DNA of 64,000 nt from an uncultured Pelagibacteraceae bacterium (GTDB lineage: Bacteria > Pseudomonadota > Alphaproteobacteria > Pelagibacterales > Pelagibacteraceae). A program made the position numbers and the translations under genes. The stretch spans positions 62,001-126,000 of the forward strand of contig CACOSU010000001.1 of assembly GCA_902629935.1 (NCBI GenBank). The letters run 5' to 3'. Shown here piece after piece: positions 29,996 through 49,856 of this stretch; the first letter of the stretch is position 1; every line of letters begins with the position of its first letter. The notes under the pieces were generated by a model that worked only from the letters and a program-made list of their open reading frames with translations, made no database searches and was not told the origin of the DNA.

Positions 29996-31126
29996 CTAAT
30001 TTTGGTTAATTAACTTTTGATACATTGCTTGATCGGTATCTCCTTCACAACCAAAAACTAAAACATTTGATTTTTCATTGAAGTCTAATTTTTCTTTAAT
30101 TGCTTGATCCTCACAACTTGTAATCAAACTGATTACGCCAGGCGCTGAATTTTCTCCAGCTATAATTTTAGCATCACTAAAGCTTGAATTTCCAAGTAAT
30201 TTCATAGTTTTTGCAATATCATCATCTGGTAAACTTATGCAATGTTTTACTGAATTTTTGAGTATTTCCCATGGGACTAATGATACCTCTCCACAAGACA
30301 TACCTCCCATTAAACTCTCTCTTTTAATATCTATTTTTTTTATTTTACCAGTTTTAATACTTTCCATTACACACGCAGCACTATCTGGTTCAACAACTAT
30401 AATTGTTGGAACATATTTTAAATATCTTGCAATACCAGCAACCATTGCAGCAGCCATGCCACCAACACCAGCCTGTAAAATGATGTGTGTTATTTTCTCT
30501 TCTTGGATTTGATCAGTTATCTCTTTCATCATCACTGTATAACCTGCCATTGTATACTTGGGGACAACCATATAGTCTTTCCATGCAACATCCTGAACTA
30601 TTTGCCAATTATTTTCAGTAGAACGCTTTATACATTCCATCAAAGATTTTTCATAATTACCTTTTACTTTAACTACGTCTGCTCCAAGATCAGACATAGC
30701 CTTACCTCTTGCATCACTTACAAATTCACTAATAAATATTTTACAGTTTAAACCTAATCTTTTAGCTCCCCAAGCAACTGATCTACCGTGATTACCAGCA
30801 GTTGCTGTTGCCACAACTATATCCTTGTTTCCTTTAGTGACTTTTTCAACCGCATAAGCTCCACCTAGCGCTTTAAAAGATTTTAAATCAAATCTTTTGT
30901 GCTCATCTTTATAAAAAATTTTATTTAAATTTAGTTCTTTAGAGAGTTTGTTTAAAGATAAAAGGGGAGTAGGGGAATAACCTTTCCACTTAGAAATACT
31001 ATTATAAGCATCATCTATTTCTGTTGTAGTTAAAGAATTTAAAATCTTTTTTTTATTAAATGAATAATTTTTATTATCGATAAATTCACTATATTTCCAT
31101 TGATGACCATTGGATAATATCGTCAT
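29996..31126 (-). CDS. Diaminopropionate ammonia-lyase-like PLP enzyme
   Basis: SFKALGGAYAV PLP Lys region, TATAGNHGRSVAWGAKRLG, GGMSCGEVS; 3-nt gap to the upstream gmaS stop. Confidence 0.8.
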   Translation of the reverse strand: MTILSNGHQWKYSEFIDNKNYSFNKKKILNSLTTTEIDDAYNSISKWKGYSPTPLLSLNKLSKELNLNKIFYKDEHKRFDLKSFKALGGAYAVEKVTKGNKDIVVATATAGNHGRSVAWGAKRLGLNCKIFISEFVSDARGKAMSDLGADVVKVKGNYEKSLMECIKRSTENNWQIVQDVAWKDYMVVPKYTMAGYTVMMKEITDQIQEEKITHIILQAGVGGMAAAMVAGIARYLKYVPTIIVVEPDSAACVMESIKTGKIKKIDIKRESLMGGMSCGEVSLVPWEILKNSVKHCISLPDDDIAKTMKLLGNSSFSDAKIIAGENSAPGVISLITSCEDQAIKEKLDFNEKSNVLVFGCEGDTDQAMYQKLINQN

Positions 31127-31129
31127 AGA

Positions 31130-32455
31130 CTAGCAATCTAAAGTATTATCTTTTTCCCATTGTGACACTGGTTTTCTCTTATTAAAATTATTTTTCGATT
31201 TAAAATTTTTAATTTCTAAATTTTTTAACTTTATATAGCTTTTAATGACATCTGCACCAAAAGCTTTTGATAGCGCTTTACTATTTTGAAGCATATTAAT
31301 AGCTTGATTTATATCATTTGGTAATTTTTTTAATTTAGGATATTTTTTATAATCCTCATACATATTACAATGGAGAGGTTTTCCTGGATTTAATTTTTTA
31401 TTAATTCCCTCTAGTCCTGCAGCAATAATACCTGCTTGAAGTAGGTATGGATTAGCTGAACCATCCATTAATCTTAGCTCAAATCTACCTTTGTCAGGGA
31501 TTCTAATCATATGAGTTCTATTATTACCTGTGTAAGAAATACTACTTGGAGACCATGTTGCGCCAGATTTTGTTGGTGGAGCATTTATTCTTCTATAACT
31601 GTTGATTGTTGGATTAAAAAAAGCAGAAAGCGCCTGAGTGTTGTTCATAATTCCACCTAAAAAATTATAAGCTAGCTTACTTAATCCTAATTGATTTTTA
31701 TTGTCTAAAAATTTATTTGTTTTTCCATTCCATACTGAAACATGAGCATGACAACCATTACCAGTTAAATTACTAAACGGTTTTGGCATAAAAGTTGCTC
31801 TTAAACCATGTTTCTCTGCTAGACTTTTTACCATAAATTTAAAGAAGACATGTCTATCCGCAGTGATTAGAGAGTCTGAATAATCCCAGTTCATCTCGAA
31901 TTGACCATTAGCATCTTCATGGTCATTTTGGTAAGGTTTCCAACCCATTTCTAACATGCAATCACAAATTTCTTTTATTAAATCATACCTTCTCATAAGA
32001 GCTGATTGGTCATAACAAGGTTTAGATTGAATATCTCTTTTATCCGCCAAAGAATGTCCGTCTTCAGAAATTAAAAAATATTCACACTCAACACCCGATT
32101 TCATTTGAAGTTTCTTTTGTGACATTTTTTTTATCTGCTCTTTAAGCATTACTCTTGGAGAAGCTTTAACAGGTTTACCATCCATGTATAAATCAGAAGC
32201 CAGCCAACCAATTTCTTTATTCCACGGTAGTTGAATTAGACTATCTGGATCTGGGACACCAAACATATCACTGTCAGCAGGGGTCATATCTAGCCATGTA
32301 GCGAAACCTGCGAAACCTGCTCCATCTTTCTGCATATCACCAATTGCTTGAGTTGGAACTAATTTAGATCTTAAAACTCCAAACAGATCTACGAAACTTA
32401 TTAAAAAATATTTAATTTTTTTAGCTTTTGCTATCTTAGATAAATTTTTTGGCAT
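31130..32455 (-). CDS. gmaS: Gamma-glutamylmethylamide synthetase (type III glutamine synthetase-like)
   Basis: KYFLISFVDLFGVLRSKLVPTQAIGDMQKDGAGFAGFATWLDMTPADSDMFGVPDPDSLIQLPW, characteristic of GmaS; followed upstream by the mgs-type triad. Confidence 0.85.
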   Translation of the reverse strand: MPKNLSKIAKAKKIKYFLISFVDLFGVLRSKLVPTQAIGDMQKDGAGFAGFATWLDMTPADSDMFGVPDPDSLIQLPWNKEIGWLASDLYMDGKPVKASPRVMLKEQIKKMSQKKLQMKSGVECEYFLISEDGHSLADKRDIQSKPCYDQSALMRRYDLIKEICDCMLEMGWKPYQNDHEDANGQFEMNWDYSDSLITADRHVFFKFMVKSLAEKHGLRATFMPKPFSNLTGNGCHAHVSVWNGKTNKFLDNKNQLGLSKLAYNFLGGIMNNTQALSAFFNPTINSYRRINAPPTKSGATWSPSSISYTGNNRTHMIRIPDKGRFELRLMDGSANPYLLQAGIIAAGLEGINKKLNPGKPLHCNMYEDYKKYPKLKKLPNDINQAINMLQNSKALSKAFGADVIKSYIKLKNLEIKNFKSKNNFNKRKPVSQWEKDNTLDC

Positions 32456-32489: not shown

Positions 32490-33818
32490 TCACTTTTTTT
32501 CTTTTATTCCTGGTATCCAATTACTTCCTGCCAGAGGAACTCTAGCCATTGCAGCAGCTTCAACAGTTAGTGCACATAAATCTTCAGGCTCTAAATTATG
32601 TAAACTATTTTTTCCACAAGCTCTTGCAAGTGTTTGCGCTTCTAGTGTCATCACTTTTAGATAATTGGTTAATTTTTTACCAGCTTTAACTGGATCTAAT
32701 CTTTTCATTAAAGTTGGATTTTGAGTTGATATTCCAGCTGGATCATTTCCCTCGTGCCAATCATCATAAGCACCCGCTGTAGAACCTAACTTGTTGTATT
32801 CTTTTTCCCACTTAGGATCATTATCACCTATAGCTATCATCGCTGCACTACCTATTGACACTGCATCTGCTCCTAGCGCTAAAGCTTTTGCAACATCCGC
32901 ACCATTTCTAATTCCACCTGATATTACCAATTGTACTTCTCTATGTGCGTTTAAATCTTGTAGGGCATCTACTGCAGGTCTAATACAAGCTAAAGTAGGT
33001 TGACCAACATTTTCTATAAAAACTTCTTGGGTAGCAGCCGTTCCTCCTTGCATCCCATCTAGCACAACTACATCAGCTCCCGCTTTTACAGCTAAAGCAG
33101 TATCGTAATATGGTCTTGCACCAGCAATTTTTATAAAGATAGGAACTTTCCATTTTGTAATTTCACGTAATTCTAAAATTTTTATTTTTAAATCGTCTGG
33201 TCCAGTCCAGTCAGGATGTCTACATGCAGATCTTTGATCAACTCCTTTAGGTAAAGTTCTCATTTTTGCAACTCTATCATTTATTTTTTGACCTAATAAC
33301 ATTCCACCGCCACCAGGTTTCGCACCTTGACCTATAACAACTTCAATTGCATCTGCTTTTCTTAAATCGTCTGGGTTCATTCCATATCTAGATGGTAATA
33401 ATTGGTAAACTAAATATTTTGATTGCCCTCTTTCTTCTGGAGTCATTCCTCCATCACCCGTAGTAGTAGAAGTACCAGCAGCACTTGCGCCTCTTCCCAA
33501 AGCTTCCTTTGCTGGGCCTGATAATGCACCAAAGCTCATTCCTGCAATTGTAATTGGTATATCTAATTCAAGTGGTTTTTTTGCATATTTAGTCCCAAGA
33601 GTTACATTTGTGGTACATTTTTCTCTATAACCCTCTAAAGGATATCTGGACATTGAGGCTCCTAAAAACAGTAAATCATCAAAGTGGGGAAGTTTTCTTT
33701 TAGATCCTCCACCTCTAATATCATAAATACCTGTCGCCGCAGCTCTTCTTATTTCTGAATTTGTATATTCATCAAAAGTCCATGATTGACGAGGATGAGT
33801 TTTATTATTTTTTTTCAT
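32490..33818 (-). CDS. mgsC: N-methylglutamate synthase FMN-binding subunit (glutamate-synthase-like, GlxD-type)
   Basis: PITIAGMSFGALSGPAKEALGRGA, GQGAKPGGGGMLLG, VVLDGMQGGTAAT, GADAVSIGSAAMIA. Confidence 0.85.
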   Translation of the reverse strand: MKKNNKTHPRQSWTFDEYTNSEIRRAAATGIYDIRGGGSKRKLPHFDDLLFLGASMSRYPLEGYREKCTTNVTLGTKYAKKPLELDIPITIAGMSFGALSGPAKEALGRGASAAGTSTTTGDGGMTPEERGQSKYLVYQLLPSRYGMNPDDLRKADAIEVVIGQGAKPGGGGMLLGQKINDRVAKMRTLPKGVDQRSACRHPDWTGPDDLKIKILELREITKWKVPIFIKIAGARPYYDTALAVKAGADVVVLDGMQGGTAATQEVFIENVGQPTLACIRPAVDALQDLNAHREVQLVISGGIRNGADVAKALALGADAVSIGSAAMIAIGDNDPKWEKEYNKLGSTAGAYDDWHEGNDPAGISTQNPTLMKRLDPVKAGKKLTNYLKVMTLEAQTLARACGKNSLHNLEPEDLCALTVEAAAMARVPLAGSNWIPGIKEKK

Positions 33819-33820
33819 AT

Positions 33821-34516
33821 TTAATAGTTAGAAATATTATCTATTTTAAAATTGTATAATTTTTTTGCTGACCCATATCTTTTAAAGTTTTCAGCTTTTT
33901 CATTTTTAATATTTGCTTCCTGCAAAAGTAAATTTAATTTTTTTATATGTTTTTTATCCATTTTTTTTTCAACACAATCTGCGCCAAGTGATTTCACCTT
34001 ACCTTTTATATATATGTTTGTTTCATACAAACTATCACCTAATGCCTCACCAGCATCACCACATACTACCAAGTTGCCTGCTTGAGACATAAAACCTGAC
34101 ATATGGCCAACTGAACCTTTAACAACTATATCCACACCTTTCATAGATATTCCACATCTTGAACTAGCATCACCATCAATAATTAAAAGCCCACCGTGAG
34201 CAGTTGCACCCGCAGATTGTGACGCATTACCCTTTACATGAACTTTACCAGACATCATATTTTCGGCTACACCAGTCCCCACATTACCCTCAATTGTAAT
34301 ATTTGCTTTTTGATTCATTCCGGCGCAATAATATCCAACATGACCTTTAATATTTATATTTAATTCTTCAGTAAGCCCAGCACATACAGCGTGATTACCC
34401 TCAGGATTTATTATAGTAAAATCTCTATCGTTTACTTTTCGATCTAAACTTTGCAATTGTTCGTTTACTTTTCTTAACTTTAACTTTTTTAAATCTAATT
34501 TCATTAATTTCCCCAA
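33821..34516 (-). CDS. mgsB: N-methylglutamate synthase GXGXG-domain subunit (GlxC-type)
   Basis: Repeated GXXG beta-helix pattern (IKGHVGYYCAGMNQKANITIEGNVGTGVAENMMSGKVHVKG). Confidence 0.85.
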   Translation of the reverse strand: MGKLMKLDLKKLKLRKVNEQLQSLDRKVNDRDFTIINPEGNHAVCAGLTEELNINIKGHVGYYCAGMNQKANITIEGNVGTGVAENMMSGKVHVKGNASQSAGATAHGGLLIIDGDASSRCGISMKGVDIVVKGSVGHMSGFMSQAGNLVVCGDAGEALGDSLYETNIYIKGKVKSLGADCVEKKMDKKHIKKLNLLLQEANIKNEKAENFKRYGSAKKLYNFKIDNISNY

Positions 34517-35388
34517 GAATATACAATACCAGGTTCTGGCTCAAAAATTTTTGCATTGTTAACATCTGGAAGATGTGCCATCGCTTGAAATTCAGACGCT
34601 ATTGCAACATAATTTTTTGTTTCTGCTATAACTGCAGGCTTACATGCAATTTCATCTCTTACTACCGCAAATCCTTTTCTCGTCCCGGCTATAAATGTAT
34701 AAAAGCCATCTAAGTCTTTTAGACCTGAAACAAGTGTATTTTTTAAGGAATTATTATTTGAGAGACTATTAGAAACATAGCCAGCAGCAACTTCAGTATC
34801 ATTTTCAGAAGTAAAAGTATTTCCTTTCTTCTTAAGTTCTCTTCTCAAGTTATTATGATTAGATAAAGAACCATTATGGACTAAACATTCATCTTCTCCT
34901 GTTGAATAAGGATGAGAGCCATCAGTAGTTATCGCACTCTCCGTCGCCATCCTAGTATGCCCAATACCGTGAGTACCACTAAAACTTTCTAAATTAAATT
35001 TTTTAACCACATCTTTTGGATTTCCAACTTGTTTAAAAATTTCAATAGAATGTCCATATCCCACAATAGAAACTTCAGGGAATTCTTCATTAATAAGCTT
35101 AATAAATTTTTTTGGTATTTCTGTAGTTTTAACTATTACATGATCTGAGTATTGATTTAGTTTTAGTTTGTTAATTTTATTTGAAATATTTTTTTTAAAT
35201 TTACTAAAATCTAAATTATTTATGCACAATGAGTATTTATATTCTTTTTTTTCTGAATTTTTATAGATAGCAAATCCTGCACTATCTGGTCCTCTAGACT
35301 CCATGTTGTTAAGCATACCTGATAACATTTTACCTAAATTTTTTTCAAATTTTTTTGTTTTCAAATATATTCCAACAATTCCACACAT
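34504..35388 (-). CDS. mgsA: N-methylglutamate synthase class II glutamine amidotransferase subunit (GlxB-type)
   Basis: N-terminal MCGIVGIY nucleophile Cys, RGPDSAGFA, GTHGIGHTRMATES, HPYSTGEDECLVHNGSLSNH. Confidence 0.85.
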   Translation of the reverse strand: MCGIVGIYLKTKKFEKNLGKMLSGMLNNMESRGPDSAGFAIYKNSEKKEYKYSLCINNLDFSKFKKNISNKINKLKLNQYSDHVIVKTTEIPKKFIKLINEEFPEVSIVGYGHSIEIFKQVGNPKDVVKKFNLESFSGTHGIGHTRMATESAITTDGSHPYSTGEDECLVHNGSLSNHNNLRRELKKKGNTFTSENDTEVAAGYVSNSLSNNNSLKNTLVSGLKDLDGFYTFIAGTRKGFAVVRDEIACKPAVIAETKNYVAIASEFQAMAHLPDVNNAKIFEPEPGIVYSWGN

Positions 35389-35855: not shown

Positions 35856-37256
35856 TTACCTGGTTGAGGACGCAACTGCTTTTTCGTCTTCTTTAGCAGT
35901 CTCCATTATTTCATAATCTAGTCCAGCTATCTCAACTTCACGAGGGATTCTTAATTTACCCATACCATGAAGAACTCTAGCTATGACATAGCCCGGTATT
36001 AGTCCAAGAACAACGAACATTATTAATGCACCGATGAATTGACCTAATGGGTTTATTGATGCGTAAGTAGTTCCGTCCCACATAGCGCCAACACTGTAAC
36101 CAGAAGCTGGGTAACCATTTAAGACAAATCCACAAATCACAAGACCAATAAATCCAGCATAACCGTGTACTGCAACCGCACCAACTGCATCATCAATTTT
36201 GAACTTACGCTCAACCCAGTAATGTAGTTTATATGAAATTACAACACCGATCATACCAATGATCATTGCTTGAATTGGATGATATAAATCATTTCCAGCT
36301 GAAGCACATATGATACCTGCTAGTCCACTAGAGTATGTCCAGAAAGGATCACCTTTAGCAATCCAATAACCAGCTAATAATCCTCCAGATAATGACATCA
36401 AGAAGTTAAAAGTTATACCACTAAGTGTAGTAGGGGTTACGTATATGTTTGTAGCTGTCCAATAACTTATGCCTTCCATCCCATATTCGGGTCCAAGGTC
36501 AAAGATTGGTATATTACATGCTGCGTAAAAACCCCAGAAGCCAGTATAAATTAGAAATAATCCAATTGTTACTAGCCAAGGATTTCTTGGCCCAATGTTT
36601 CTTGGTTCACCACTCGATGAAAATTTTCCAATTCGTGGTCCTAAAACCATAAGAACACCTAGCGCAAATCCACCTGCAATTGCATGAATTACACCTGATG
36701 CATACGCATCATGATATCCTAAAAGTTTTAACATCCAGCCATCAAAGTGCCATCCCCAGGCTGCATCTATTACCCAGAATACAGATCCAATTGCAATTGC
36801 TAAAATCCCAAATGCAAAAGTTGTTATTCTTTCAATAATTGCTCCTGACACGATAGAAGCAGCAGTCCATGAGAATAATAAGAATGCAGCCCAGAAGACA
36901 CCAGAAATATGGTCTCCTAGATTTACAGCCATTAAATCACTTGTTGCCGTATACCATGTTGCACTAAATGCGGACTCATCTGTAATGAGAGCAGTGCTTT
37001 CATTCATTATTGATGGTGCTAAACCCGGTCCTGTAGGAAAAGCCCAATATATCCACCAACCAAATAAAAACCACGTCACTGTTACCAATGGTATTAGCAT
37101 AGTGTTTTTCATAAGAGTATGTTGATGGTGTTTGTATCGAGAAGCCCCAACTTCATACATACAGAAACCGACGTGAATTAAAAACATCAGTACTACCGTT
37201 ACCCAGTAGTAAAATTCTGTAAATATGGTCGTAAGAGCAGCCAACTGATCAGTCAT
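35856..37256 (-). CDS. amt: Ammonium transporter family protein (divergent Amt)
   Basis: Multi-TM; DAYASGVIHAIAGG and DAVGAVAVHGYAGFIG align with the twin-His regions of Amt. Confidence 0.85.
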   Translation of the reverse strand: MTDQLAALTTIFTEFYYWVTVVLMFLIHVGFCMYEVGASRYKHHQHTLMKNTMLIPLVTVTWFLFGWWIYWAFPTGPGLAPSIMNESTALITDESAFSATWYTATSDLMAVNLGDHISGVFWAAFLLFSWTAASIVSGAIIERITTFAFGILAIAIGSVFWVIDAAWGWHFDGWMLKLLGYHDAYASGVIHAIAGGFALGVLMVLGPRIGKFSSSGEPRNIGPRNPWLVTIGLFLIYTGFWGFYAACNIPIFDLGPEYGMEGISYWTATNIYVTPTTLSGITFNFLMSLSGGLLAGYWIAKGDPFWTYSSGLAGIICASAGNDLYHPIQAMIIGMIGVVISYKLHYWVERKFKIDDAVGAVAVHGYAGFIGLVICGFVLNGYPASGYSVGAMWDGTTYASINPLGQFIGALIMFVVLGLIPGYVIARVLHGMGKLRIPREVEIAGLDYEIMETAKEDEKAVASSTR

Positions 37257-37383: not shown

Positions 37384-37800
37384 TTAAAATTTTAAGTAAG
37401 CTTTTTTCAAATCAACAAGTGGATGCTTTGGTGACATTTGGAACTTAACCAGCAACTCTCTTGCAATCATATCTCTATCTTGTTGATTGTTTGGAAGTTT
37501 AATTGATTTTGGAATAGTAACCCATCCATTTGCATTTCTGCAGAATACTGCAGGTCTATCTTCCTCATATCCCATATGAACATCTTCAAGCCAATTTAAA
37601 TCATCCCATCCCATAGCTTCTATATATTTTTTTAGAAATGGGGTAATTTTACTATAATCAGGTAAAAGATTTACATCATATCGGTAACCAATAGATTGAC
37701 CGATCATTTTTTCTCTAGCTGTTTCTGCTTTTTTTCCTAATTGACCTTTAATCTCTTTTTCTTTTGCTTTAACTAACTTTTTACCCTTTTTTTTAGCCAT
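37384..37800 (-). CDS. Uncharacterised 138-aa protein, last gene of a GS/Glx-like operon
   Basis: Lys-rich N-terminus then a globular region (YEEDRPAVFCRNANGWVTIPKSIKLP); 11 nt downstream of a GlxD-like gene. Confidence 0.7.
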   Translation of the reverse strand: MAKKKGKKLVKAKEKEIKGQLGKKAETAREKMIGQSIGYRYDVNLLPDYSKITPFLKKYIEAMGWDDLNWLEDVHMGYEEDRPAVFCRNANGWVTIPKSIKLPNNQQDRDMIARELLVKFQMSPKHPLVDLKKAYLKF

Positions 37801-37811
37801 AGTTATTACTC

Positions 37812-39224
37812 TTATATTTTATGATAGTTATCAACTCCAACTGTATAGTTAGTCCCTGCAAGTGGAACTTTTGCTAATGCTGAAGCTTCAGATGTCAGTG
37901 CAGCTAAATCTTCAGGCTCTAACGAGTGGATATTTGTTTTTCCACAAGCTCTAGCTAAAAGTTGAGCTTCTAGAGTCATTGAATGAAGATAATTATAAAC
38001 TCTCAGTGCAGCATCATCTGGATTTAACCTTGCTCTCAATTTTGGATCTTGAGTTGCAACACCCACTGGACATCTTCCAGTGTGGCAGTGATAACACTCA
38101 CCTGCTTTTACTCCCATTTCTTTTTCAAAGTTTGCTTCAGGAATATCTTTATTACAATTTAATGCGATCATTGAGCCAGTACCAATCGCAATTGCATCAG
38201 CTCCCAGAGCTAAGGCTTTTGCCATATCCGCACCGTCTCTAACACCACCTGCATAAATTAATGTTACTTTTCCAGTTTTACCAACATCGTCGATTGCTCT
38301 TCTTGCCTCTCTAATTGCTGCTATACCAGGAATACCAGTGTTAGCAGCGGCTATGTGGGGACCTGCACCAGTAGAACCTTCCATTCCATCAAGATAAATA
38401 GAGTCAGGATCACATTTAGCAGCCATACGCACATCATCATAAACTTTTGATGCTCCAAGTTTTAATTGAATTGGTACTTTATTTTTAGTCAATTGTCTTA
38501 GCTCTTCTACTTTTAAAGCTAAATCATCTGGTCCCAGCCAATCAGGGTGTCTTGCGGGAGATCGTTGATCAATACCTGATGGTAAAGATCTCATTTCAGC
38601 AACTTGGTCAGTTACTTTTTGGCCCATTAAGTGACCACCCATTCCAACTTTTTGTCCCTGTCCAATAAAAACTTCAATACCATCAGCTAATTGTGCGTGA
38701 TGAGGATTAAAACCATATCTTGATTGAATACATTGATAATACCACTTCTCAGAATATCTTCTTTCGTCTGGTATCATTCCACCTTCTCCAGAACATGTTG
38801 CACTACCAGCCATTGTTGCTCCTCTTGCTAAAGCAGTTTTTGCTTCGTATGAAAGAGCTCCAAAACTCATCCCAGTTATGTAAACAGGAATTTCTAGTTC
38901 AATTGGATTTTCACATCTTGGACCAATTACAGTTTTAGTTTCACATTTTTCTCTGTAACCTTCGATTACAAATCTTGTTAATGTTCCTGGTAAAAAAACT
39001 AAATCATCGAATGTAGGAATTTTTTTCATCAGCGCCATACCACGCATTCTGTATCTTCCTAATTGAGATTTAATATGAATATCGTCAATTACTTCTGGAG
39101 TAAAAATAGCATTATGCCCTAATAAACTTTTATTCCTTTTACCCTCTTCATGAACATGAACGTCAGCTTTTCCACCAACGCCTTTTCCATTTTTTTTAAT
39201 TTTTTTTGACTTTTTCTTAGGCAT
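37812..39224 (-). CDS. Glutamate-synthase-like FMN/FeS subunit (GlxD-type), paralogue of mgsC
   Basis: PVYITGMSFGALSYEAKTALARGA, YLDGMEGSTGAGP, ECYHCHTGRCPVGVATQDP cysteine cluster. Confidence 0.85.
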   Translation of the reverse strand: MPKKKSKKIKKNGKGVGGKADVHVHEEGKRNKSLLGHNAIFTPEVIDDIHIKSQLGRYRMRGMALMKKIPTFDDLVFLPGTLTRFVIEGYREKCETKTVIGPRCENPIELEIPVYITGMSFGALSYEAKTALARGATMAGSATCSGEGGMIPDERRYSEKWYYQCIQSRYGFNPHHAQLADGIEVFIGQGQKVGMGGHLMGQKVTDQVAEMRSLPSGIDQRSPARHPDWLGPDDLALKVEELRQLTKNKVPIQLKLGASKVYDDVRMAAKCDPDSIYLDGMEGSTGAGPHIAAANTGIPGIAAIREARRAIDDVGKTGKVTLIYAGGVRDGADMAKALALGADAIAIGTGSMIALNCNKDIPEANFEKEMGVKAGECYHCHTGRCPVGVATQDPKLRARLNPDDAALRVYNYLHSMTLEAQLLARACGKTNIHSLEPEDLAALTSEASALAKVPLAGTNYTVGVDNYHKI

Positions 39225-40078
39225 TAAATTGCTCCCTTCTTCTCTGTAGGTTCCAAGTTATCATAATTCCAAAGTTTTTTACCCGCTACAATTTTTTTCA
39301 TTTTACTTACATCAAAATTTTCACCAATTTCAGCAACTTTTAATTTTCTTTTTAACCAATCTTGGTCGCTAGAAGTTAATTCTGAATCTACTGCATCACT
39401 ACCATAAGATCCTATTTCGCCACCTACGAAAATTGTCCCATCATACATTGAGTCACCTAGGTTAATTCCTACATCTCCAAGAATAATTATTCTTCCTCTT
39501 TGCATCATAAAACCTGTAAATGCACCAGCATCTCCACCAATTATAATGGTACCACCTTTCATATCGATACCAGTTCTCGCTCCAACACTACCTTTGCAAA
39601 TTAGGTCTCCACCCCTTATAGCAGCTCCAAAGCATGATCCTGCATTCTTTTCAATCACAACTTTTCCTGCCATTAAGTTCTCCGCGCATGACCATCCAAC
39701 TCTACCATTAATTCTTACTATTGGACCATCACATGATCCCATTCCAAAATAACCTAAGCTTCCTTCAAAAATTAGGTTCAATTTATTTAGGATACCAACA
39801 CCAAGACTATGCTTTCCTTGGGGATTTTTTATTACAATAGTCCCATATCCTTGGCTCATTAAATTATCTATTTCTTTATTTGCTTCAGGAGCAGTCATAT
39901 CTTTTACGTCTAAATCTGTTCTTTTATTAAAATCAACATCATAAGTTCCAAAATAATAAAAGTTCTCAGCTTCATCTGGATTAAAAAATTTCTGCTGGGT
40001 TCTACCTGTAAGCACCTCAGTGTGCATACCCATCTCTTGGGCTTTTGTTTTTTTAGTAACGTTTTTTAAATTCGCCAT
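39224..40078 (-). CDS. GXGXG-domain protein (GlxC-type), paralogue of mgsB
   Basis: GXXG beta-helix repeats (GRVGWSCAENLMAGKVVIEKNAGSCFGAAIRGGDLICKGSVGARTG) with an N-terminal extension. Confidence 0.85.
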   Translation of the reverse strand: MANLKNVTKKTKAQEMGMHTEVLTGRTQQKFFNPDEAENFYYFGTYDVDFNKRTDLDVKDMTAPEANKEIDNLMSQGYGTIVIKNPQGKHSLGVGILNKLNLIFEGSLGYFGMGSCDGPIVRINGRVGWSCAENLMAGKVVIEKNAGSCFGAAIRGGDLICKGSVGARTGIDMKGGTIIIGGDAGAFTGFMMQRGRIIILGDVGINLGDSMYDGTIFVGGEIGSYGSDAVDSELTSSDQDWLKRKLKVAEIGENFDVSKMKKIVAGKKLWNYDNLEPTEKKGAI

Positions 40079-41010
40079 ACTTTAACCTCCCCATCAAATG
40101 GATCGTAAGTATCAATTTCTTGTGGTAGCACTGATCTTATTGCAATTTCTTCTGATCCCATTGCTACTAAATCATCTGACTCATACAAAACTAAAGGTTT
40201 TGCTGCCATTGTGTCTTTTGCCATTCCCAAAGAATCTTTAGTTGCAACAAAATAAGTAAATACACCATCAAGACCAGTTAAAGAATCTTTCATTCCCTCT
40301 TCAAGCGAAGCTCCTTCTCTCATTTTTTGTGCAATGTAAACTGCTATAAGTTCTGAGTCACACTCAGACATAAATCTCATTCCTTTATTTTCCAATGCTC
40401 TTCTATTATTCCAATAATTTGTTAATTGCCCATTATGAACCACTGAAACATCACTAAAAGGGTATCCCCAGAATGGGTGAGCAGATTTTATATCAACACC
40501 AGACTCAGTTGCCATTCTAGCATGACCTATCGCATGGGTTCCTATAAGTTTATCTAAAGAGTACCTATCACAAACCGCTTTTGCATTTCCAAGATCCTTA
40601 ATGACCTCTAATGATTTACCCATAGATAGAATTTCAACACCTGGAATACTTTCAATAGTTTGAGAAAAATTAAGAAGGTCTTTTACATCATAATCTATTT
40701 CATATCTTAAAGAGTAGGGTAAAGTTCTTTCTTCTTTAATCACTTTAGCCCCTAATTCAGCTAAAGTTTGATCTACTATTTTTTTTCTTTCATCATAAAC
40801 AGAAACATCCTCCATAACAGAAGATGAACCTTCACCGACGTTTTCACCAACTTTAAAACGCATTATAAAATGCTTGCCATCCGTATCACCGTATAAGGCA
40901 TATCCTGTTGAGTCTTCACCTCTATGTTTTAATGCTTGGAGCATTCCTTGTAATTCACTACCAACATTAGAAGATTTACCTCTATGAATTAAACCTGCTA
41001 TTCCACACAT
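40066..41010 (-). CDS. Class II glutamine amidotransferase-like protein (GlxB-type), paralogue of mgsA
   Basis: MCGIAGLIHRG, LKHRGEDSTGYALYG, GTHAIGHARMATES, VVHNGQLTNYWN. Confidence 0.85.
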   Translation of the reverse strand: MCGIAGLIHRGKSSNVGSELQGMLQALKHRGEDSTGYALYGDTDGKHFIMRFKVGENVGEGSSSVMEDVSVYDERKKIVDQTLAELGAKVIKEERTLPYSLRYEIDYDVKDLLNFSQTIESIPGVEILSMGKSLEVIKDLGNAKAVCDRYSLDKLIGTHAIGHARMATESGVDIKSAHPFWGYPFSDVSVVHNGQLTNYWNNRRALENKGMRFMSECDSELIAVYIAQKMREGASLEEGMKDSLTGLDGVFTYFVATKDSLGMAKDTMAAKPLVLYESDDLVAMGSEEIAIRSVLPQEIDTYDPFDGEVKVWRI

Positions 41011-41040
41011 ATTATATTTATACCCTTTCTATTTAACGAC

Positions 41041-42510
41041 CTACGGTAGACAATCAAGATAAGTATCCAGATCCCACTGTGTTGTTGCACCTAAAAATCT
41101 TTCCCACTCATCATTTTTATACCAGTGAAAAACTTTGTACATTTCATCTGGCATTGCAGATTTGATTACTTCATCCTCTGCAAGTCTATCTAAAGCTTCA
41201 CCGAGACTTAATGGAAGTTTTTTAACATCTTTTCCAGCTTTTTGAGCCTCATAAATATTTCTAGACTCTGGAGCTGCTGGTTTCATTTTTTTACTAATAC
41301 CTTCATCGCATGCTTTTAATAAAGCAGCACCTAACAAGTAAGGATTATGCATAGAGTCCACCGATCTATATTCAAATCTTCCGGGAGCAGAAACTCTTAA
41401 TCCACAAGTTCTATTTTGATATCCCCAGTCAGCATAAACAGGTGCCCAAAATCCTTGGTCCCATAATCTTCTGTATGAGTTTACAGTTGAAGATCCAAGA
41501 GCAGTTAATGCCGGCAAATGTTTCATAATACCTGCTATTGATTGTAATCCAATTTTTCCAGGTAATTGTGGATCTTTAGTATCTGGCATGAAAGTATTCT
41601 TTCCACCTGAAACATAACTAAATACCTCATCAACACCTGGCAAAGATTTGTGACCTAACTTGTTGACTGAAACTTTTCCACCCTTCCATAACGACATATT
41701 TGTATGACAACCACTTGCAGATACACCCATGAATGGTTTTGTCATAAAGCAAGCTATTAAACCATGTTCTCTAGCTACTTGAGCACAAATTTGCCTATAG
41801 GTAGATAGTCTATCTGCATTTCTTAAGACATTGTCGAAAGTCCAGTTTAATTCTAATTGTCCTGGAGCATCTTCATGATCACCTTGTATCATATCTAAGC
41901 CCATAGCATTAGAATATTCAATCACCTTCATAAAAACAGGTCTTAATGACTCAAATTGGTCAATATGATAACAGAATGGTTTTGAAAAACCTTTACCAGT
42001 CGGTGTTCCATCGTCATTTTTTGTTAACCACATCATTTCTGGTTCAGTTCCAACTCTTAACTCTAGTCCATGTTTTTTTTGAAATTCATCCATGAAAATT
42101 CTTAAATTTCCTCTGCAATCAGATGTAAGGTGACCTCCTGGATTTTCTCTTTCTTCTCTGTTTCTAAAACATGTACAAAATACTCTTCCAACTCTTTTGT
42201 CCCATGGTAACTGAACGAAAGTTTCTGGATCTGGAATTCCAACCAGCTCCATTGCTTCTGGTCCATAGCCAATGTAATTATTATGACGATCTAAAAATAA
42301 GTTTGCAGTTGATCCGTAAACTAATTGAAAACCTTTTTCTGCAGTTCTTTCCCAATGATCTGCTGGTATTCCTTTACCTACAACTCTTCCTGTAACAGAT
42401 ATAAATTGAAAATAAATGTAAGTAATTCCTAATTCTTTGATTTTTTCTCTAACTTTTTTGACCAGCTTTGCTCTACCTGGTTGATTTACATGTTTTTCTA
42501 AATCAGTCAT
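41041..42510 (-). CDS. Type III glutamine synthetase-like enzyme, substrate unknown (GlnT-like)
   Basis: GS catalytic region (EPEMMWLTKN..., GDHEDAPGQLELNW, GASGCHTNMSLW-type); distinct from the 441-aa GmaS paralogue. Confidence 0.8.
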   Translation of the reverse strand: MTDLEKHVNQPGRAKLVKKVREKIKELGITYIYFQFISVTGRVVGKGIPADHWERTAEKGFQLVYGSTANLFLDRHNNYIGYGPEAMELVGIPDPETFVQLPWDKRVGRVFCTCFRNREERENPGGHLTSDCRGNLRIFMDEFQKKHGLELRVGTEPEMMWLTKNDDGTPTGKGFSKPFCYHIDQFESLRPVFMKVIEYSNAMGLDMIQGDHEDAPGQLELNWTFDNVLRNADRLSTYRQICAQVAREHGLIACFMTKPFMGVSASGCHTNMSLWKGGKVSVNKLGHKSLPGVDEVFSYVSGGKNTFMPDTKDPQLPGKIGLQSIAGIMKHLPALTALGSSTVNSYRRLWDQGFWAPVYADWGYQNRTCGLRVSAPGRFEYRSVDSMHNPYLLGAALLKACDEGISKKMKPAAPESRNIYEAQKAGKDVKKLPLSLGEALDRLAEDEVIKSAMPDEMYKVFHWYKNDEWERFLGATTQWDLDTYLDCLP

Positions 42511-42577: not shown

Positions 42578-43906
42578 TTAACTCCAAGGAAACGGACTGT
42601 TCGAAGTGGGGTGAAGTTCCCCCTTAGCGTAACGATCGTATCTAAACGGTTTTAATAAGTCACTTTCTTGACCTAAAATCTCTTGCGCAACCAAATGCCC
42701 AACACCAATCATTTTATACCCATGGTTAGCGTCAGCAATCATATAAACATTTTCAAAAAATCTATCAAAAATTGGGAAAGAGTCTGGGGTTAAACAACCA
42801 AGACCACCAGATGGACCTTTTCTGTACAAATCAGATTTTCCCTCAAATCTTTTTTGAATATGTGCAAGTGCCGATGTCCACATGTCAGCAAATTTGTCAG
42901 TCGTTTGATATTCAGGAGATTCAATTCCATATGGATCAACATTTACTTTATCAAAATGTTTTTGAACAATATATGGAGAAGTTCCTCCTTGAACTCCTAA
43001 ACCTTCTATATCAGGTTTATAATAAATACCCCAAAGCTCGTCTGTTATTAATTTTTTATCTTTATCTGAATATAAAGGTGCATCTGTATCTACGTGTATT
43101 ACTGGAGGCTGTTTACCATCATTAGTTTTTAAATAATCTGCATCAACACCTAGAACACCCTCTTGTAAAAACCAATATTTCCACATTTCAACTTCATGCA
43201 TTTTTCCATCTTTGCCTTTAATCTCTGTAGATTTAGGTAACTCAAGCATATTCCAAAAATCTCTTACCCATGGACCAGCTCCAACAACTACCTGATCACA
43301 TTCTATAGTCCCTAAATTTGTTACTACTCCAGTTACCGCATTACTATTACTGCCTCTTTTGAAACCTGTTACGGTAACACCTTTGTGAACATTTACGCCA
43401 TTTGAATTTGCTTTACTCTCAAGAGCTTTAATTGAATCTTTATTGAAGGCGTAACCACCTTTTTTTTCATGCAGAACTGAAGTTATCCCTTTAGCTTGCC
43501 AGTCATCAAAAATACCTCTCATGTAGTTTGAACAATCTTTTTCTCCTTCTATAAAGACTGATTCATATCCAATTGCTTTTTGTTGATTATAAATACTGGC
43601 CACATCTTCATGCATTACTTCTGGTGATATTTGCATGTATCCAACAGGATTATACTTAAATGCTTTAGGATCACTTTCCCAAACTGAAACTGAATGAGCC
43701 ATAAGCTCTCTCATAGCTGGTTGAAAATAATTATTTCTAACAACCCCACAAGCAATTCCACTTGCTCCTGCAGCTGTATCTTTTTTTTCTAAAACGATTA
43801 CATCACCAGGATTTTTATATGTTTCAGAAAGTTTCCATGCAGTGCTTAAACCGTGTATTCCACCACCAATAATAACTACTTTGGCTTTTGAAGGTAATGT
43901 CGTCAT
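42578..43906 (-). CDS. DAO-family FAD-dependent oxidoreductase (SoxB/DMGDH-like)
   Basis: VVIIGGGIHGLSTAWKL dinucleotide fold, GPSGGLGCLTPDSFPIFDR, DANHGYKMIGVGHLVAQEI. Confidence 0.85.
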   Translation of the reverse strand: MTTLPSKAKVVIIGGGIHGLSTAWKLSETYKNPGDVIVLEKKDTAAGASGIACGVVRNNYFQPAMRELMAHSVSVWESDPKAFKYNPVGYMQISPEVMHEDVASIYNQQKAIGYESVFIEGEKDCSNYMRGIFDDWQAKGITSVLHEKKGGYAFNKDSIKALESKANSNGVNVHKGVTVTGFKRGSNSNAVTGVVTNLGTIECDQVVVGAGPWVRDFWNMLELPKSTEIKGKDGKMHEVEMWKYWFLQEGVLGVDADYLKTNDGKQPPVIHVDTDAPLYSDKDKKLITDELWGIYYKPDIEGLGVQGGTSPYIVQKHFDKVNVDPYGIESPEYQTTDKFADMWTSALAHIQKRFEGKSDLYRKGPSGGLGCLTPDSFPIFDRFFENVYMIADANHGYKMIGVGHLVAQEILGQESDLLKPFRYDRYAKGELHPTSNSPFPWS

Positions 43907-44007: not shown

Positions 44008-44358
44008 CTAATAACTTATGTTTTTAAGAGTGTTTAAATACTCGTTAAACTCTTCAATAAAAGACTCGCTTGGAATTATATTTTTTATCCGCTGATCTGT
44101 TGATGTTTTTTCTAGACGAAAGAATCCTTTCTCACAAGCCTCTGTAATTATTAAAGCAGATTTTGGTCTAGAAGTTTTAAATAATTTTGTTTTAAGTTCC
44201 TCAACAGATAATTTTTTATTTTCTTTATGAGCAGACATAACAAGTAGCATCATATGATAATGAGAAGGGGACTTTCGAAAAAAATAATTACTTGCAGTAT
44301 GGGATTGTCTCATTTGTTCCTCCCAAAAATCTAAAAGTGTTTTCTTCTCTTTTGGCAT
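44008..44358 (-). CDS. Putative winged-helix (MarR-like) small protein downstream of tdm
   Basis: 116 aa; helical pattern with SVEELKTKLFKTSRPKSALIITEACEKGFFRLEKTSTDQRIKNIIPSE resembling MarR HTH-wing. Confidence 0.5.
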   Translation of the reverse strand: MPKEKKTLLDFWEEQMRQSHTASNYFFRKSPSHYHMMLLVMSAHKENKKLSVEELKTKLFKTSRPKSALIITEACEKGFFRLEKTSTDQRIKNIIPSESFIEEFNEYLNTLKNISY

Positions 44359-44363
44359 TTTCT

Positions 44364-46703
44364 TTAAGCTCTGACTCTAGATTTGGTAGGATCGTAAAAA
44401 GGAAAACCAACCACTTTTGCACCTATTCTTTTTTGATGTCCATCAATTTTACCAATCTCAACTTCTGTACCAATTTCTGAGTACTGTGAGTCTATTCTAC
44501 AAAGAGCAACATTTTTATTTAAAGTAGAAGATAGACATCCACTTGTAACCACACCAATTTGAGATCTTCCAATATGAACACAATCACCATGTCCAGCTAT
44601 TTCTTTGCCAACAAGCTCTAGACCTACTAATTTCTTTTGGGGATTGGCTTTTCTTTTAATTAATTCCTCTTTTCCAATAAAATCTTCCTCTTTTGTTTTT
44701 AATGGAACTGCAAAACCTATACCTGCTTCAAAAGGATCTTGTTCCCCATCAAATTCAGCACCAAAGAGAATTAAACCCGCTTCTATTCTAAGTTTATCTA
44801 ATGCAGCAAACCCAGCTGGTATTAAACCATCATCTTTACCTGCTTCCATTAGTTTATCCCAAACTTCGGGTGCATGTTTTGGATGACACCAAATCTCATA
44901 ACCTAACTCCCCGGTATAACCTGTTCTTGAAACAATTAACGGAATGCCTTGAAGCTCTTCAATTCTACAAATTGTGAACCTAAACCAACCTAGTTCATCT
45001 ATTGAAGGCTGTGTTGGCGGTGTAAAAATAATTTTTTTTAATATTTCTCTACTTTTAGGACCTTGTAAAGAGACATTACTTATTTGATCTGTTGAGTTTT
45101 TAATAAAAGCATTAAATTTTTTTTTCTTTGCAACTTCTTTTAACCATTCTCCTCCATACTCATCTCCACATATCCATCTAAAACCTGTCTCACTTAATCT
45201 TAAAAGAGTTCCATCATCAAACATCATTCCATTTTCATAACACATTGCTGAATAAACAACTTGTCCAACAGAAAGTTTTTTAATATTTCTTGTAAGAGTA
45301 TAATTTAAAAGTTCCTCTGCATCTGGGCCAATAATTTCGAATTTTCTTAATGATGATAAATCAATAAGTACAGCATCATTTCTACAAGCATTATATTCAT
45401 TTACTAAACCGTGTTTAGTATAGTCATTTGGAAGCCAAAAACCTCTAGCATCAATAAAATTTCGAGTTAATTTAGAAGTCCTTTCATAAAAACCAGAGTT
45501 TCTTGTAAGTTTTTTTTCTGAGTCTGCTTTCATTCTAAATGCAAATGATTTGCTAAATTCTTTATTTTTGTCATACGTTCTAACAAAAATATCAGTTGGA
45601 TTCCATGAATTACATGGATCAATATCGCTCGGACATGCAGTTGTTCCAATAGTTAAATCTTTTAAAGCTCTAAACATTACATAATCTCCTGGTCGAGAAT
45701 AAGATTCATCTGAAATGACAGAATTTAAACCTGCTGCAGAGGTGTTAAAAAATAAATTGATTGCATGCCAACCTTTCTGTTTTTGCACTCCAAATTTAGA
45801 CATACTTTCAGTTAAGTTGTCTGAGCAATTTGGATGTCCAAAATAACCCGCATCCTCATAATATTTTGAGGTACATGCAAGGTTGAAAGTGTCATGCTTT
45901 CCAACTGTGTCTCTTACAACCTCTACTAGTGGCTCATGATCAGTATCATAAAATTTTGAAAATAGGCCTGGCCCAGGAAACGTATTACCCATAAAAGTTC
46001 GTGTGGTTTGCCAGTCCAATCCTTTTTCAATTCCTTTTTCTAATTTTCTTGTATCAAATGCTACAAAGTCAGAGCACTGTCTTCCGGTAGGACTTATGAT
46101 TTGAATGTAGTCACCTTCTTTAACTTCATAAGATGTACAGGATTGTCTTAAAATATTTTCTTCGTGTGCAGGTTCAAAAACAGGATCTGGAATTACATTT
46201 AACTCTTTATCATTAGTAATTTTTGATCTTTTTATAAATATTGTTAATTCACCAGGAGGATTTTGATTTGTAACATCCATATCATCCCCAGGTGAGGCAA
46301 ATATTGCATAGCACTTATCATTTGATTTTAATTTAATAACTTCACCTGGATTTGTGTCTGGATCAAAGATTATAGCAGCATGTGAGTCTGAAATTTTTAA
46401 GTTTCTTTTTTTTAATTGATAGTTTGTTGCAAGTATAGACTCTTCTTTTCCAAGCAAAATATTTTTAATGTAATTTTTTTTACTATTTTCTTTAAGATTA
46501 AAAATTCCAAGTTCTGATTTTCCATTTTTGTTAAAACAAATAATTTCACAAATTTGATTACCTTCATTGTTAACAATTTCAATTTCATCATCTGGAAAAA
46601 CTTGAAAACCAGTTAATCCACCACCATTAACAACATGTCTTTCAACTCCAGGTGGTAAAATATTCAAACCAGGATATTTGATATCTTTACTTGTACCTAA
46701 CAT
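44364..46703 (-). CDS. tdm: Trimethylamine N-oxide demethylase (DUF1989 + GcvT/THF-binding fusion)
   Basis: N-terminal DUF1989-type region (RQCSDFVAFDTRKLEKG..., HPNCSDNLT, CPSDIDPCNSWNPTDI) fused to aminomethyltransferase (SRTGYTGELGYEIWCHP, IPAGFAALDKLRIEAG); beside tmo transporter and tmm. Confidence 0.85.
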   Translation of the reverse strand: MLGTSKDIKYPGLNILPPGVERHVVNGGGLTGFQVFPDDEIEIVNNEGNQICEIICFNKNGKSELGIFNLKENSKKNYIKNILLGKEESILATNYQLKKRNLKISDSHAAIIFDPDTNPGEVIKLKSNDKCYAIFASPGDDMDVTNQNPPGELTIFIKRSKITNDKELNVIPDPVFEPAHEENILRQSCTSYEVKEGDYIQIISPTGRQCSDFVAFDTRKLEKGIEKGLDWQTTRTFMGNTFPGPGLFSKFYDTDHEPLVEVVRDTVGKHDTFNLACTSKYYEDAGYFGHPNCSDNLTESMSKFGVQKQKGWHAINLFFNTSAAGLNSVISDESYSRPGDYVMFRALKDLTIGTTACPSDIDPCNSWNPTDIFVRTYDKNKEFSKSFAFRMKADSEKKLTRNSGFYERTSKLTRNFIDARGFWLPNDYTKHGLVNEYNACRNDAVLIDLSSLRKFEIIGPDAEELLNYTLTRNIKKLSVGQVVYSAMCYENGMMFDDGTLLRLSETGFRWICGDEYGGEWLKEVAKKKKFNAFIKNSTDQISNVSLQGPKSREILKKIIFTPPTQPSIDELGWFRFTICRIEELQGIPLIVSRTGYTGELGYEIWCHPKHAPEVWDKLMEAGKDDGLIPAGFAALDKLRIEAGLILFGAEFDGEQDPFEAGIGFAVPLKTKEEDFIGKEELIKRKANPQKKLVGLELVGKEIAGHGDCVHIGRSQIGVVTSGCLSSTLNKNVALCRIDSQYSEIGTEVEIGKIDGHQKRIGAKVVGFPFYDPTKSRVRA

Positions 46704-46807: not shown

Positions 46808-47752
46808 ATGAAAAAAATAATATCATTACTATCTGCTCTAGTTATTTCTGTTGTTAGTTTTGCAGGAATTTCTAACGCTGATAGCAAAAAGCCCATCGTG
46901 ATACCAACTCACAACTGGTCAAGCCAAATTGTAATGGCCTATGTAATTGGTGGTATTTTCGAAAGTATGGGAAATAATGTAAAATACGTTAATGCTGACT
47001 CACAAGCAGTATACGAGTCAATTAGAATTGGAGATGTAACTATATCTCACGAAGTGTGGGAGTCTGCTTTTGGAAAATCGTTTACAACAGCACTTGATAA
47101 AGGTGGTTTGTTAGATTACGGAGATCATGAAGCAAGAACTCTAGAGGATATGGGATATCCAAACTGGGTTACTGAAAAAGGATTATGCCCAGGTCTACCA
47201 GACTGGACAGCTTTAAAAAATCCAGCTTGTGCAAAAAACTTTACAACACCTGACTCTCCAGATGGAAAAGGAAGAATGTTGGAAGGTCCACAAACTTGGC
47301 ATGGTGACTTAATTCCACAAAGAGTTGACGCTTTAGGTTTAGGTGATCTTTGGTGGGTTAAATTTGCTGGGAGTGCGGATGCACTTTGGGCAGAGCTAGC
47401 AGCAGCTGAAAAAGAGGGAAGAGGAACAATTATATTCAACTGGACACCTAACTTTACAGATGGTGCTGGTTTTACATTTATTGACTTTCCTCCATACACA
47501 GCTGGTTGCAGACCAGAAGATGGTGGAGATGGTAAATGTGGTTCTCCTGATGGATACTTGAAAAAAGCAGTTCACGAGGATTTCCCAAAAACTCATCCTG
47601 ATGCAGCGGCTATGTTTAAAAAATTGTCATTCTCTACAAGTCAAATTGGTGCAATGGCAGCTTTAGTTGATGTTGACAAAATGACTCACGAAGATGCAGC
47701 TAAAAAATGGTTAGCTGACAATAAGTCAGTTTGGCAAGCTTTTACTAAATAA
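46808..47752 (+). CDS. tmoX: TMAO-type ABC transporter substrate-binding protein (OpuAC family)
   Basis: Signal peptide; IPTHNWSSQIVMAYVIGGIFESMG; adjacent to divergent tdm and downstream ATPase/permease. Confidence 0.8.
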   Translation: MKKIISLLSALVISVVSFAGISNADSKKPIVIPTHNWSSQIVMAYVIGGIFESMGNNVKYVNADSQAVYESIRIGDVTISHEVWESAFGKSFTTALDKGGLLDYGDHEARTLEDMGYPNWVTEKGLCPGLPDWTALKNPACAKNFTTPDSPDGKGRMLEGPQTWHGDLIPQRVDALGLGDLWWVKFAGSADALWAELAAAEKEGRGTIIFNWTPNFTDGAGFTFIDFPPYTAGCRPEDGGDGKCGSPDGYLKKAVHEDFPKTHPDAAAMFKKLSFSTSQIGAMAALVDVDKMTHEDAAKKWLADNKSVWQAFTK

Positions 47753-48824: not shown

Positions 48825-49856
48825 ATGTCTGAAACAGTTATCAAATGTGAATCAGTTTATAAAATTTTTGGGCAAAATGCCAAAAAGATGCTTGAAGAAG
48901 CTAACGGCAATGTAGACGCAAAAACTTTTCAAGAAAAGGGGTGTATTGTAGGAGTTAACAATGCTTCCTTTGAGGTTGCGAAAGGTGAAATGTTGGTAGT
49001 GATGGGCTTATCTGGTTCAGGTAAATCAACATTGCTTAGGTGTATATCAAGATTAACGGATGCTACAGGTGGTAAAATTTTTATTGAGGGTCAAGATTTA
49101 TTAGAATTAAACAATAAAGAACTTATAGAACTTAGGAGAAGCAAAATGGGAATGGTGTTTCAAAGTTTTGCTTTACTACCGCATAAAACCGTTGTTGAAA
49201 ATATTGCATTTCCATTACAGATCAAAGGAACTAACACTGAGGATAGTATTAATAGAGCAATGGAAATGGTAAAATTAGTTGGACTTGATGGAAGAGAAAA
49301 CTATTTTCCAAGAGAGCTCTCAGGTGGGCAACAACAAAGAGTAGGTATTGCAAGATCACTAGCAGTAGAACCTGATATATGGTTTTTGGACGAACCTTTT
49401 TCTGCACTAGATCCATTAATCAGAAAAGAAATGCAAGATGAATTTTTAAGACTTCAAGAAAAATTACAAAAAACTATTATGTTCATTACTCATGATTTTG
49501 ATGAGGCATTAAAGTTAGCTGATCGAATAGCAATTATGAAAGATGGTATAATTGAGCAATTAGATACACCAGCAAATATAGTATTAAATCCAGCGACTGA
49601 ATATGTACGAAAATTTACTGAAGAAGTACCGAGAGAGAAGGTTTTAATTATTGAGGATGTCATGGATGCCTTAAGCAAAGATAACTTAGGAGATTTAAAA
49701 GTATCAAAAGATGAAATTATAGAAAATGTTGCCGAAAAAATACTTACTCAAGAAAAATTAGTAGGAGTAGTTGACTCAAATAACAACATTGTAGGATCAA
49801 TTAAACCTTCAAAAATAATAGACACAGTTTTTGGAGGAAGAAAAAATGGTAGTTAA
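48825..49856 (+). CDS. tmoV: TMAO-type ABC transporter ATPase
   Basis: GLSGSGKSTLLRCI, LSGGQQQRVGIARSLAVEPDIWFLDEPFSALDP; CBS-like C-terminus. Confidence 0.85.
   Translation: MSETVIKCESVYKIFGQNAKKMLEEANGNVDAKTFQEKGCIVGVNNASFEVAKGEMLVVMGLSGSGKSTLLRCISRLTDATGGKIFIEGQDLLELNNKELIELRRSKMGMVFQSFALLPHKTVVENIAFPLQIKGTNTEDSINRAMEMVKLVGLDGRENYFPRELSGGQQQRVGIARSLAVEPDIWFLDEPFSALDPLIRKEMQDEFLRLQEKLQKTIMFITHDFDEALKLADRIAIMKDGIIEQLDTPANIVLNPATEYVRKFTEEVPREKVLIIEDVMDALSKDNLGDLKVSKDEIIENVAEKILTQEKLVGVVDSNNNIVGSIKPSKIIDTVFGGRKNGS

Follow-up and report, generated by a model that had tools for sequence, protein, structure and literature searches.

A 64-kb window of DNA (the whole stretch analysed here; contig 1, bases 62001-126000) from a 1.2-Mb Pelagibacteraceae (SAR11) genome contains a six-gene unit, FAD442-GS489-GlxB2-GlxC2-GlxD2-P138, behind the gene for the trimethylamine N-oxide (TMAO) demethylase Tdm. 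We propose, with a probability of roughly 0.55, that this module processes the dimethylamine (DMA) that Tdm produces, in bacteria without a DMA monooxygenase, by way of gamma-glutamyl-dimethylamide, N,N-dimethylglutamate and N-methylglutamate. It is about an even bet that SAR11 and many other Alphaproteobacteria share an undescribed DMA route of this kind, in which gamma-glutamyl-dimethylamide would be converted to N,N-dimethylglutamate by a four-subunit GlxBCD2-P138 enzyme and then demethylated by a DAO-family flavoprotein, with no monooxygenation. The operon structure, its conservation, residue signatures, the association with tdm and the exclusion of DmmA are direct observations, and an association of the module with DMA metabolism is well supported.

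The module is part of a minus-strand run of genes separated by gaps of -13 to +127 bp:

44364-46703, minus strand: Tdm, TMAO demethylase, 779 aa, yielding DMA and a one-carbon (C1) unit; DUF1989 and GcvT domains
44008-44358, minus strand: P116, a 116-aa protein; matches no NCBIfam family and, above cut-off, no Pfam family
42578-43906, minus strand: FAD442, DAO-family flavoprotein (Pfam DAO), proposed N,N-dimethylglutamate demethylase
41041-42510, minus strand: GS489, 489 aa (Pfam Gln-synt_C), proposed gamma-glutamyl-dimethylamide synthetase
40066-41010, minus strand: GlxB2, class II glutamine amidotransferase (GATase) subunit, 314 aa (Pfam GATase_6/7)
39224-40078, minus strand: GlxC2, GXGXG subunit with an N-terminal extension, 284 aa (Pfam GXGXG)
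37812-39224, minus strand: GlxD2, FMN/GltS-like synthase subunit, 470 aa (Pfam Glu_synthase)
37384-37800, minus strand: P138, 138 aa, proposed accessory subunit of GlxBCD2 from its conservation and position
35856-37256, minus strand: Amt/AmtB-family transporter, 466 aa (TIGR00836 176.7 bits, cut-off 343), a conserved neighbour

The gaps are 5-101 bp in the upstream part (Tdm, P116 and FAD442), and Amt lies 127 bp downstream of P138. An earlier note, made from the letters alone, had marked out only the genes from GS489 to P138. Its five open reading frames (ORFs) lie exactly where it put them, all on the minus strand, and the lengths it gave for two glutamine synthetase (GS)-like proteins, 489 aa in this set (set 2) and 441 aa in the nearby GmaS-MgsABC genes (set 1), agree with the ORFs. 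The genes are real; the boundary of the unit was misplaced, as it extends upstream to FAD442, P116 and Tdm. Because FAD442 and Tdm, which the note had missed, belong to the unit, a substrate can be suggested. Nor does the gene order repeat that of gmaS/mgsABC as claimed: GS stands first in set 2 and last in set 1. Tdm scores 1082.7 bits against NF053776 over residues 17-779, slightly under the curated cut-off of 1100, and both GCV_T and DUF1989 are present.

The same six genes recur in the same order in gene maps from many alphaproteobacterial families. We surveyed 386 evenly drawn alphaproteobacterial genomes, scoring the module by P138 and Tdm at E<=1e-100. Tdm was found in 34 of the 386 and the module in 36; 26 genomes have both, 10 only the module, eight only Tdm and 342 neither (Fisher p=2e-25). 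Genomes of one lineage are not independent, and a count of families is the fairer test: among tdm-positive families, 13 have the module, four have DmmA (PF11927) and none has both (p=0.0016). DmmA occurs in 52 of the 386, five of the eight Tdm-only genomes carry a strong match to it, and no genome in the sample combines such a match with the module. In genus g34 (G089, G303 and G378), the PF11927 matches are weak (51-59 bits) and by our judgement were not counted as DmmA, their scores being far below those of the other matches. No PF11927 protein was found in 61 Pelagibacterales genomes (that of the window and 60 relatives). Four of the five genomes with both DmmA and tdm also encode GmaS and MgsC.

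The link to Tdm extends to gene neighbourhoods. Tdm and FAD442 adjoin GS489 in all 68 SAR11 loci with room for them, and in many non-SAR11 families Tdm is on the same contig, ~6-22 kb from P138. In G244 (L131), the operon continues into SoxB, SoxD and SoxA and then formate-tetrahydrofolate (THF) ligase (Fhs), a tail that by analogy fits the expected remainder of a route from methylated glutamate to C1-THF. Contig ends account for most cases in the SAR11 genus where module and Tdm do not match. Among the Tdm-only genomes of the survey, G223 has GS489, FAD442 and GlxBCD2 and lost P138 to a contig end, and in G303 Tdm itself lies at one.

Judged from its sequence, GS489 belongs to a clade of its own, neither GmaS nor ammonia GS. 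The label 'GS-III' given to it earlier does not hold, as it reaches 297.2 bits against TIGR03105, below the curated cut-off of 469.6; the GmaS of the window scores 626.4. In a phylogenetic tree, a check that the earlier note had proposed, GS489 is monophyletic (support 0.78) and joins plasmid relatives (0.99), the GmaS clade including RhGmaS (7cql) is monophyletic without it (support 1.0), and it groups with neither characterised GmaS nor ammonia GS. Orthologues at least 67% identical occur in all module genomes except G275 and G387, the latter with a GS489 fragment at a contig end. We compared the amine pocket at eight RhGmaS positions, the roles of the methylamine-pocket residues being known from the crystal structure (PMC7948447). 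The amine-pocket and catalytic residues Lys30', Tyr147, Gln175, Asp177, Glu179, Glu186, Asn188 and Arg312 are kept in 33 of 33 GS489-family sequences, and the Asp (Asp50-loop) and Glu (Glu-flap) of the ammonium site are replaced in the same 33 by Val64 and Trp355. Set against GmaS, GS489 carries fixed replacements: Tyr174 is Ile, Gly231 is Ala, His237 is Asn and Ala48' is Val. With its GmaS-like pocket, GS489 is a predicted gamma-glutamyl-alkylamide ligase. The suggestion that this set acts on a different amine is supported by the separate clade, the kept amine pocket, the missing ammonium site and the genomic association with DMA; the accompanying suggestion of a link to ammonium assimilation finds no support, since both ammonium-binding residues, Asp and Glu, are substituted.

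GS489-like ligases without GlxBCD also occur on plasmids of Paracoccus, Ruegeria, Rhodococcus and Gordonia (L088:15884-17470, L089:12462-13946, L090:11980-13395 and L092:12001-13161), where they adjoin a second GS-like gene, P450, aldehyde dehydrogenase or gamma-glutamyl hydrolase genes and possibly represent a wider family of amine ligases. In G127 (L195), two GS489-type stretches share one contig with a 441-aa ORF between them, and the tblastn match to GS489 has an in-frame stop.

GlxBCD2 shares the three-subunit make-up of MgsABC: class II GATase, GXGXG and FMN/GltS-like subunits. In GlxB2, the N-terminal MCG and the RG-DS, RMATES and VHNG motifs are conserved. Two features first read from the single sequence hold across the family, namely the N-terminal extension of the GXGXG subunit (276-299 aa in the GlxC2 family versus 224-257 aa for MgsB) and the intact iron-sulfur (Fe-S) cysteine motif of the GltS-like subunit (C357, C377, C380 and C385, invariant in 35 of 35 set-2 sequences). 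Because these four cysteines are always kept in set 2 and are absent from the MgsC of the window, GlxD2 may receive its electrons by way of an Fe-S cluster. GlxD2 orthologues are 50-54% identical to this MgsC and MgsC orthologues at least 68% identical among themselves, so GlxD2 forms a separate orthologous group. Against the glutamate synthase (GOGAT) profile NF008730, GlxD2 scores 133.5 bits (cut-off 1047); the subunits are short and separate, and the module has no GltD. P138, an added gene in the earlier note, has no Pfam or NCBIfam match. Outside its own genome, its homologues in the 36 of 386 Alphaproteobacteria are 64-90% identical, and in nearly all mapped loci it directly follows GlxD2. 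A phylum-wide sample had it in two of 398 genomes, in Alphaproteobacteria only. Predicted structures of P138 and FAD442 from SAR11-only alignments had a pLDDT of 42, too low for fold comparison.

The nearest solved structures to FAD442 are beta subunits of heterotetrameric sarcosine oxidase. Since these enzymes act on N-methylated amino acids, attachment to a glutamate skeleton would make DMA a suitable substrate for FAD442. Orthologues, 54-69% identical outside SAR11, occur in most module genomes, usually directly before GS489; some are found at other places in the genome, next to GmaS, Amt or SoxB-SoxA. In five of six loci tested, FAD442 has a GntR-FCD regulator next to it. G210 lacks the module; its FAD442 neighbours genes for a Rieske oxygenase (GbcA-like) and a reductase (GbcB-like), a setting that by analogy would produce an N,N-dimethyl amino acid and fits such a substrate for FAD442. 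P116 was found only in SAR11 loci among those examined. The SAR11 genome G341 (L175:9352-11123) is without tdm, GmaS, GS489 and P138, yet keeps FAD442 and P116; this points to another role of the pair, perhaps dimethylglycine oxidation.

Every substrate and product, like the part played by P138 and the source of electrons, is inferred from sequence, position and distribution. GS489 would use ATP to join glutamate and DMA as gamma-glutamyl-dimethylamide. By analogy with the N-methylglutamate synthase MgsABC, GlxB2 would then free DMA inside the GlxBCD2-P138 complex, and GlxC2 and GlxD2 would condense it with 2-oxoglutarate and reduce the iminium on FMN, giving N,N-dimethylglutamate. The sarcosine-oxidase-type FAD442 would remove one methyl group, leaving N-methylglutamate and a C1 unit. 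Finally, an N-methylglutamate dehydrogenase of the SoxBDAG/MgdABCD type would move the last methyl group onto THF and return glutamate. DMA would thus enter the N-methylglutamate pathway without free monomethylamine.

Several observations weigh against this pathway. The ten module genomes without Tdm do so, as does G275, which has GlxBCD2-P138 with GmaS in the place of GS489 and neither FAD442 nor Tdm. Both module and DmmA are missing from two Tdm-bearing genomes, G045 and G376; of these, G045, which belongs to a different family of the order, is the real exception, with Tdm and FAD442 and no GS489. FAD442 was not found in module genomes G127, G131, G275 and G407, of which G127, G131 and G407 have both GS489 and Tdm. 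It also occurs without the module (in G341, in G210 and, beside tdm, in G045) and so is not dedicated to it. Of the possible DMA enzymes, which include a trimethylamine dehydrogenase (TMADH)-like DMA dehydrogenase, the search covered DmmA only. We found no precedent for tertiary-amide hydrolysis or secondary-amine reductive amination by this enzyme family and, in the open-access literature, no biochemical or genetic test of the module proteins and no paper on gamma-glutamyl-dimethylamide or dimethylglutamate in this context. As a separate observation, G376 (L159), which is rated 100% complete, carries TmoXWV-like genes as well as Tdm and may use a third DMA route.

The distribution of MgsABC also bears on specificity. 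In 39 of 59 SAR11 loci spanning both Amt and GmaS, MgsABC is missing between them and GlxBCD2 is the sole such set nearby. Set 2 is thus not the second, locally duplicated copy it was taken for: it is the core set in most SAR11 loci, and MgsABC is optional. Where MgsABC is missing, GlxBCD2 probably works for GmaS as well as for GS489; genomes with GmaS and GlxBCD2 and no MgsABC suggest that GlxBCD2 can form N-methylglutamate, and the gene content of G275 fits its serving GmaS. Such shared use weakens a strict one-enzyme-one-amine reading for GlxBCD2 and moves the DMA specificity to GS489 and FAD442.

These loci and G275 favour a second monomethylamine system, in which GS489 would act as a further gamma-glutamylmethylamide synthetase, GlxBCD2 as a further N-methylglutamate synthase and FAD442 as a monomeric N-methylglutamate dehydrogenase, the linkage to Tdm merely reflecting the clustering of methylamine genes. 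So do the identity of GS489 and GmaS at the eight pocket positions and the four genomes that have the module and tdm without GmaS (G105, G127 and G313, 81-86% complete, and G131, 95%); the DMA pathway allows for these four if DMA bypasses free methylamine. We consider a second monomethylamine system doubtful. Most module genomes keep a true GmaS, which would make a second ligase redundant in streamlined genomes; the avoidance of DmmA and the consumption of DMA in Tdm genomes would be left unexplained; and GS489 stands in its own clade, set off from GmaS by fixed residue differences.

Rather improbable is a mixed role, with GlxBCD2-P138 a general N-alkylglutamate synthase (for monomethylamine and ethylamine, isopropylamine or a cyclic secondary amine), GS489 broad or specific for that other amine, and dimethylglycine or sarcosine the substrate of FAD442. 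The P450, aldehyde dehydrogenase and gamma-glutamyl hydrolase genes beside distant GS489 relatives on plasmids, the occurrence of FAD442 without the module and the ten Tdm-less module genomes would agree with it, but the strength of the link to Tdm and the exclusion of DmmA point specifically to the product of Tdm, and those relatives found beside other genes share at most ~54% identity and have no GlxBCD. Ammonium assimilation by a GS-GOGAT pair, supplied by the adjacent Amt, would account for the GS, GATase, GXGXG and GltS-like domains, the conserved cysteines and the closeness of Amt, but is highly improbable and was rejected on the active-site residues of GS489, since Val64 and Trp355 occupy the ammonium site as in non-ammonia GmaS. 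In addition, further GS-like genes lie elsewhere in the genome, and such a pair does not predict linkage to Tdm. Polyamine gamma-glutamylation was also considered; the SAR11 polyamine paper omits glnT and the SAR11_13xx loci and favours transamination. Open-access papers on morpholine and RDX gene clusters yielded nothing usable.

Around the module, the window holds further genes of methylated-amine metabolism:

34504-35388, minus strand: MgsA of set 1, GATase, monomethylamine branch
33821-34516, minus strand: MgsB of set 1, GXGXG, monomethylamine branch
32490-33818, minus strand: MgsC of set 1, GltS-like, monomethylamine branch
31130-32455, minus strand: GmaS of set 1, 441 aa (solved GmaS 7cql, 566 bits)
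46808-47752, plus strand: TmoX, part of the TMAO ABC transporter
48825-49856, plus strand: TmoW, part of the TMAO ABC transporter
49860-52013, plus strand: TmoV, part of the TMAO ABC transporter
54469-55800, minus strand: Tmm-like flavin monooxygenase (FMO-like; trimethylamine to TMAO), with orthologues that adjoin tdm in other genomes

TmoXWV diverge from tdm; the Tmm-like monooxygenase, formate-THF ligase and SoxB lie farther out. The TmoXWV names follow from correspondence with strain HTCC1062 (PMC8918994), and a profile search finds OpuAC, ABC_tran and two BPD_transp domains; TmoV (717 aa) carries its two permease domains in tandem. Downstream of GmaS, a diaminopropionate ammonia-lyase-like pyridoxal phosphate enzyme (29996-31126) stays beside GmaS in many SAR11 loci. 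Rfam gave no match within window positions 27000-64000.

By position and annotation rather than sequence, SAR11_1302 of HTCC1062 (opuAC) corresponds to TmoX, SAR11_1303 (aminomethyltransferase) to Tdm, SAR11_1304 to FAD442 and SAR11_1305 to GS489; SAR11_1304 is annotated as monomeric sarcosine oxidase and SAR11_1305 as glnT (PMC3160333, PMC5069961). The genes are annotated individually, and the open-access papers searched gave no function for the whole set. In sulfur-limited stationary HTCC1062, SAR11_1302 and SAR11_1305 fall together (ratios 0.22 and 0.19; PMC5069961), which is weak evidence of co-regulation. SAR11 lacks dmmDABC, from which Lidbury et al. (2017, PMC5520151) reasoned that no known genes for DMA degradation are present in SAR11 and other abundant marine bacteria, a bottleneck that they used to explain DMA in marine aerosol. 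HTCC1062 nonetheless grows on TMAO as sole nitrogen source, and an unknown DmmDABC isoenzyme has been suggested (2022, PMC8918994). The module, directly behind tdm, would probably fill this missing step. If so, the bottleneck estimate is wrong and the most abundant marine heterotrophs are able to demethylate methylated amines fully; GS489 or P138 would serve as a marker gene for DMA degradation, and the intermediate N,N-dimethylglutamate would be new, as would one subunit of the synthase GlxBCD2-P138.

Among known systems, rhizobial GlnT-GlxBCD has the four domain types in common with the module, but GlnT shares 30-33% identity with GS489, and GlxD ~50% with GlxD2, and P138 has no match in any plasmid record. 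In the PuuA/B and IpuC pathways for putrescine and alkylamines, a GS-like ligase likewise activates the amine by making it a gamma-glutamyl amide, and a DAO flavoprotein is encoded close by; the module has no glutamyl hydrolase, and its GlxBCD synthase has no counterpart there. DmmDABC of Ruegeria pomeroyi and Methylocella silvestris shares the TMAO gene neighbourhood and would catalyse the same metabolic step, whereas the module has no PF11927 protein and is proposed to work by ATP-dependent conjugation and flavin demethylation, with no free monomethylamine. Closest is the N-methylglutamate pathway (GmaS, MgsABC and MgdABCD), with its GS-fold gamma-glutamyl ligase, the same amine-pocket residues, a three-subunit GlxB/C/D synthase and a SoxBDAG-type dehydrogenase nearby. 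The module differs from it in a ligase of another GS clade (489 aa), the extra P138, a longer GlxC, a DAO flavoprotein, and linkage to Tdm with exclusion of DmmA. We therefore regard the module as a new variant of the N-methylglutamate pathway, with the chemistry proposed above.

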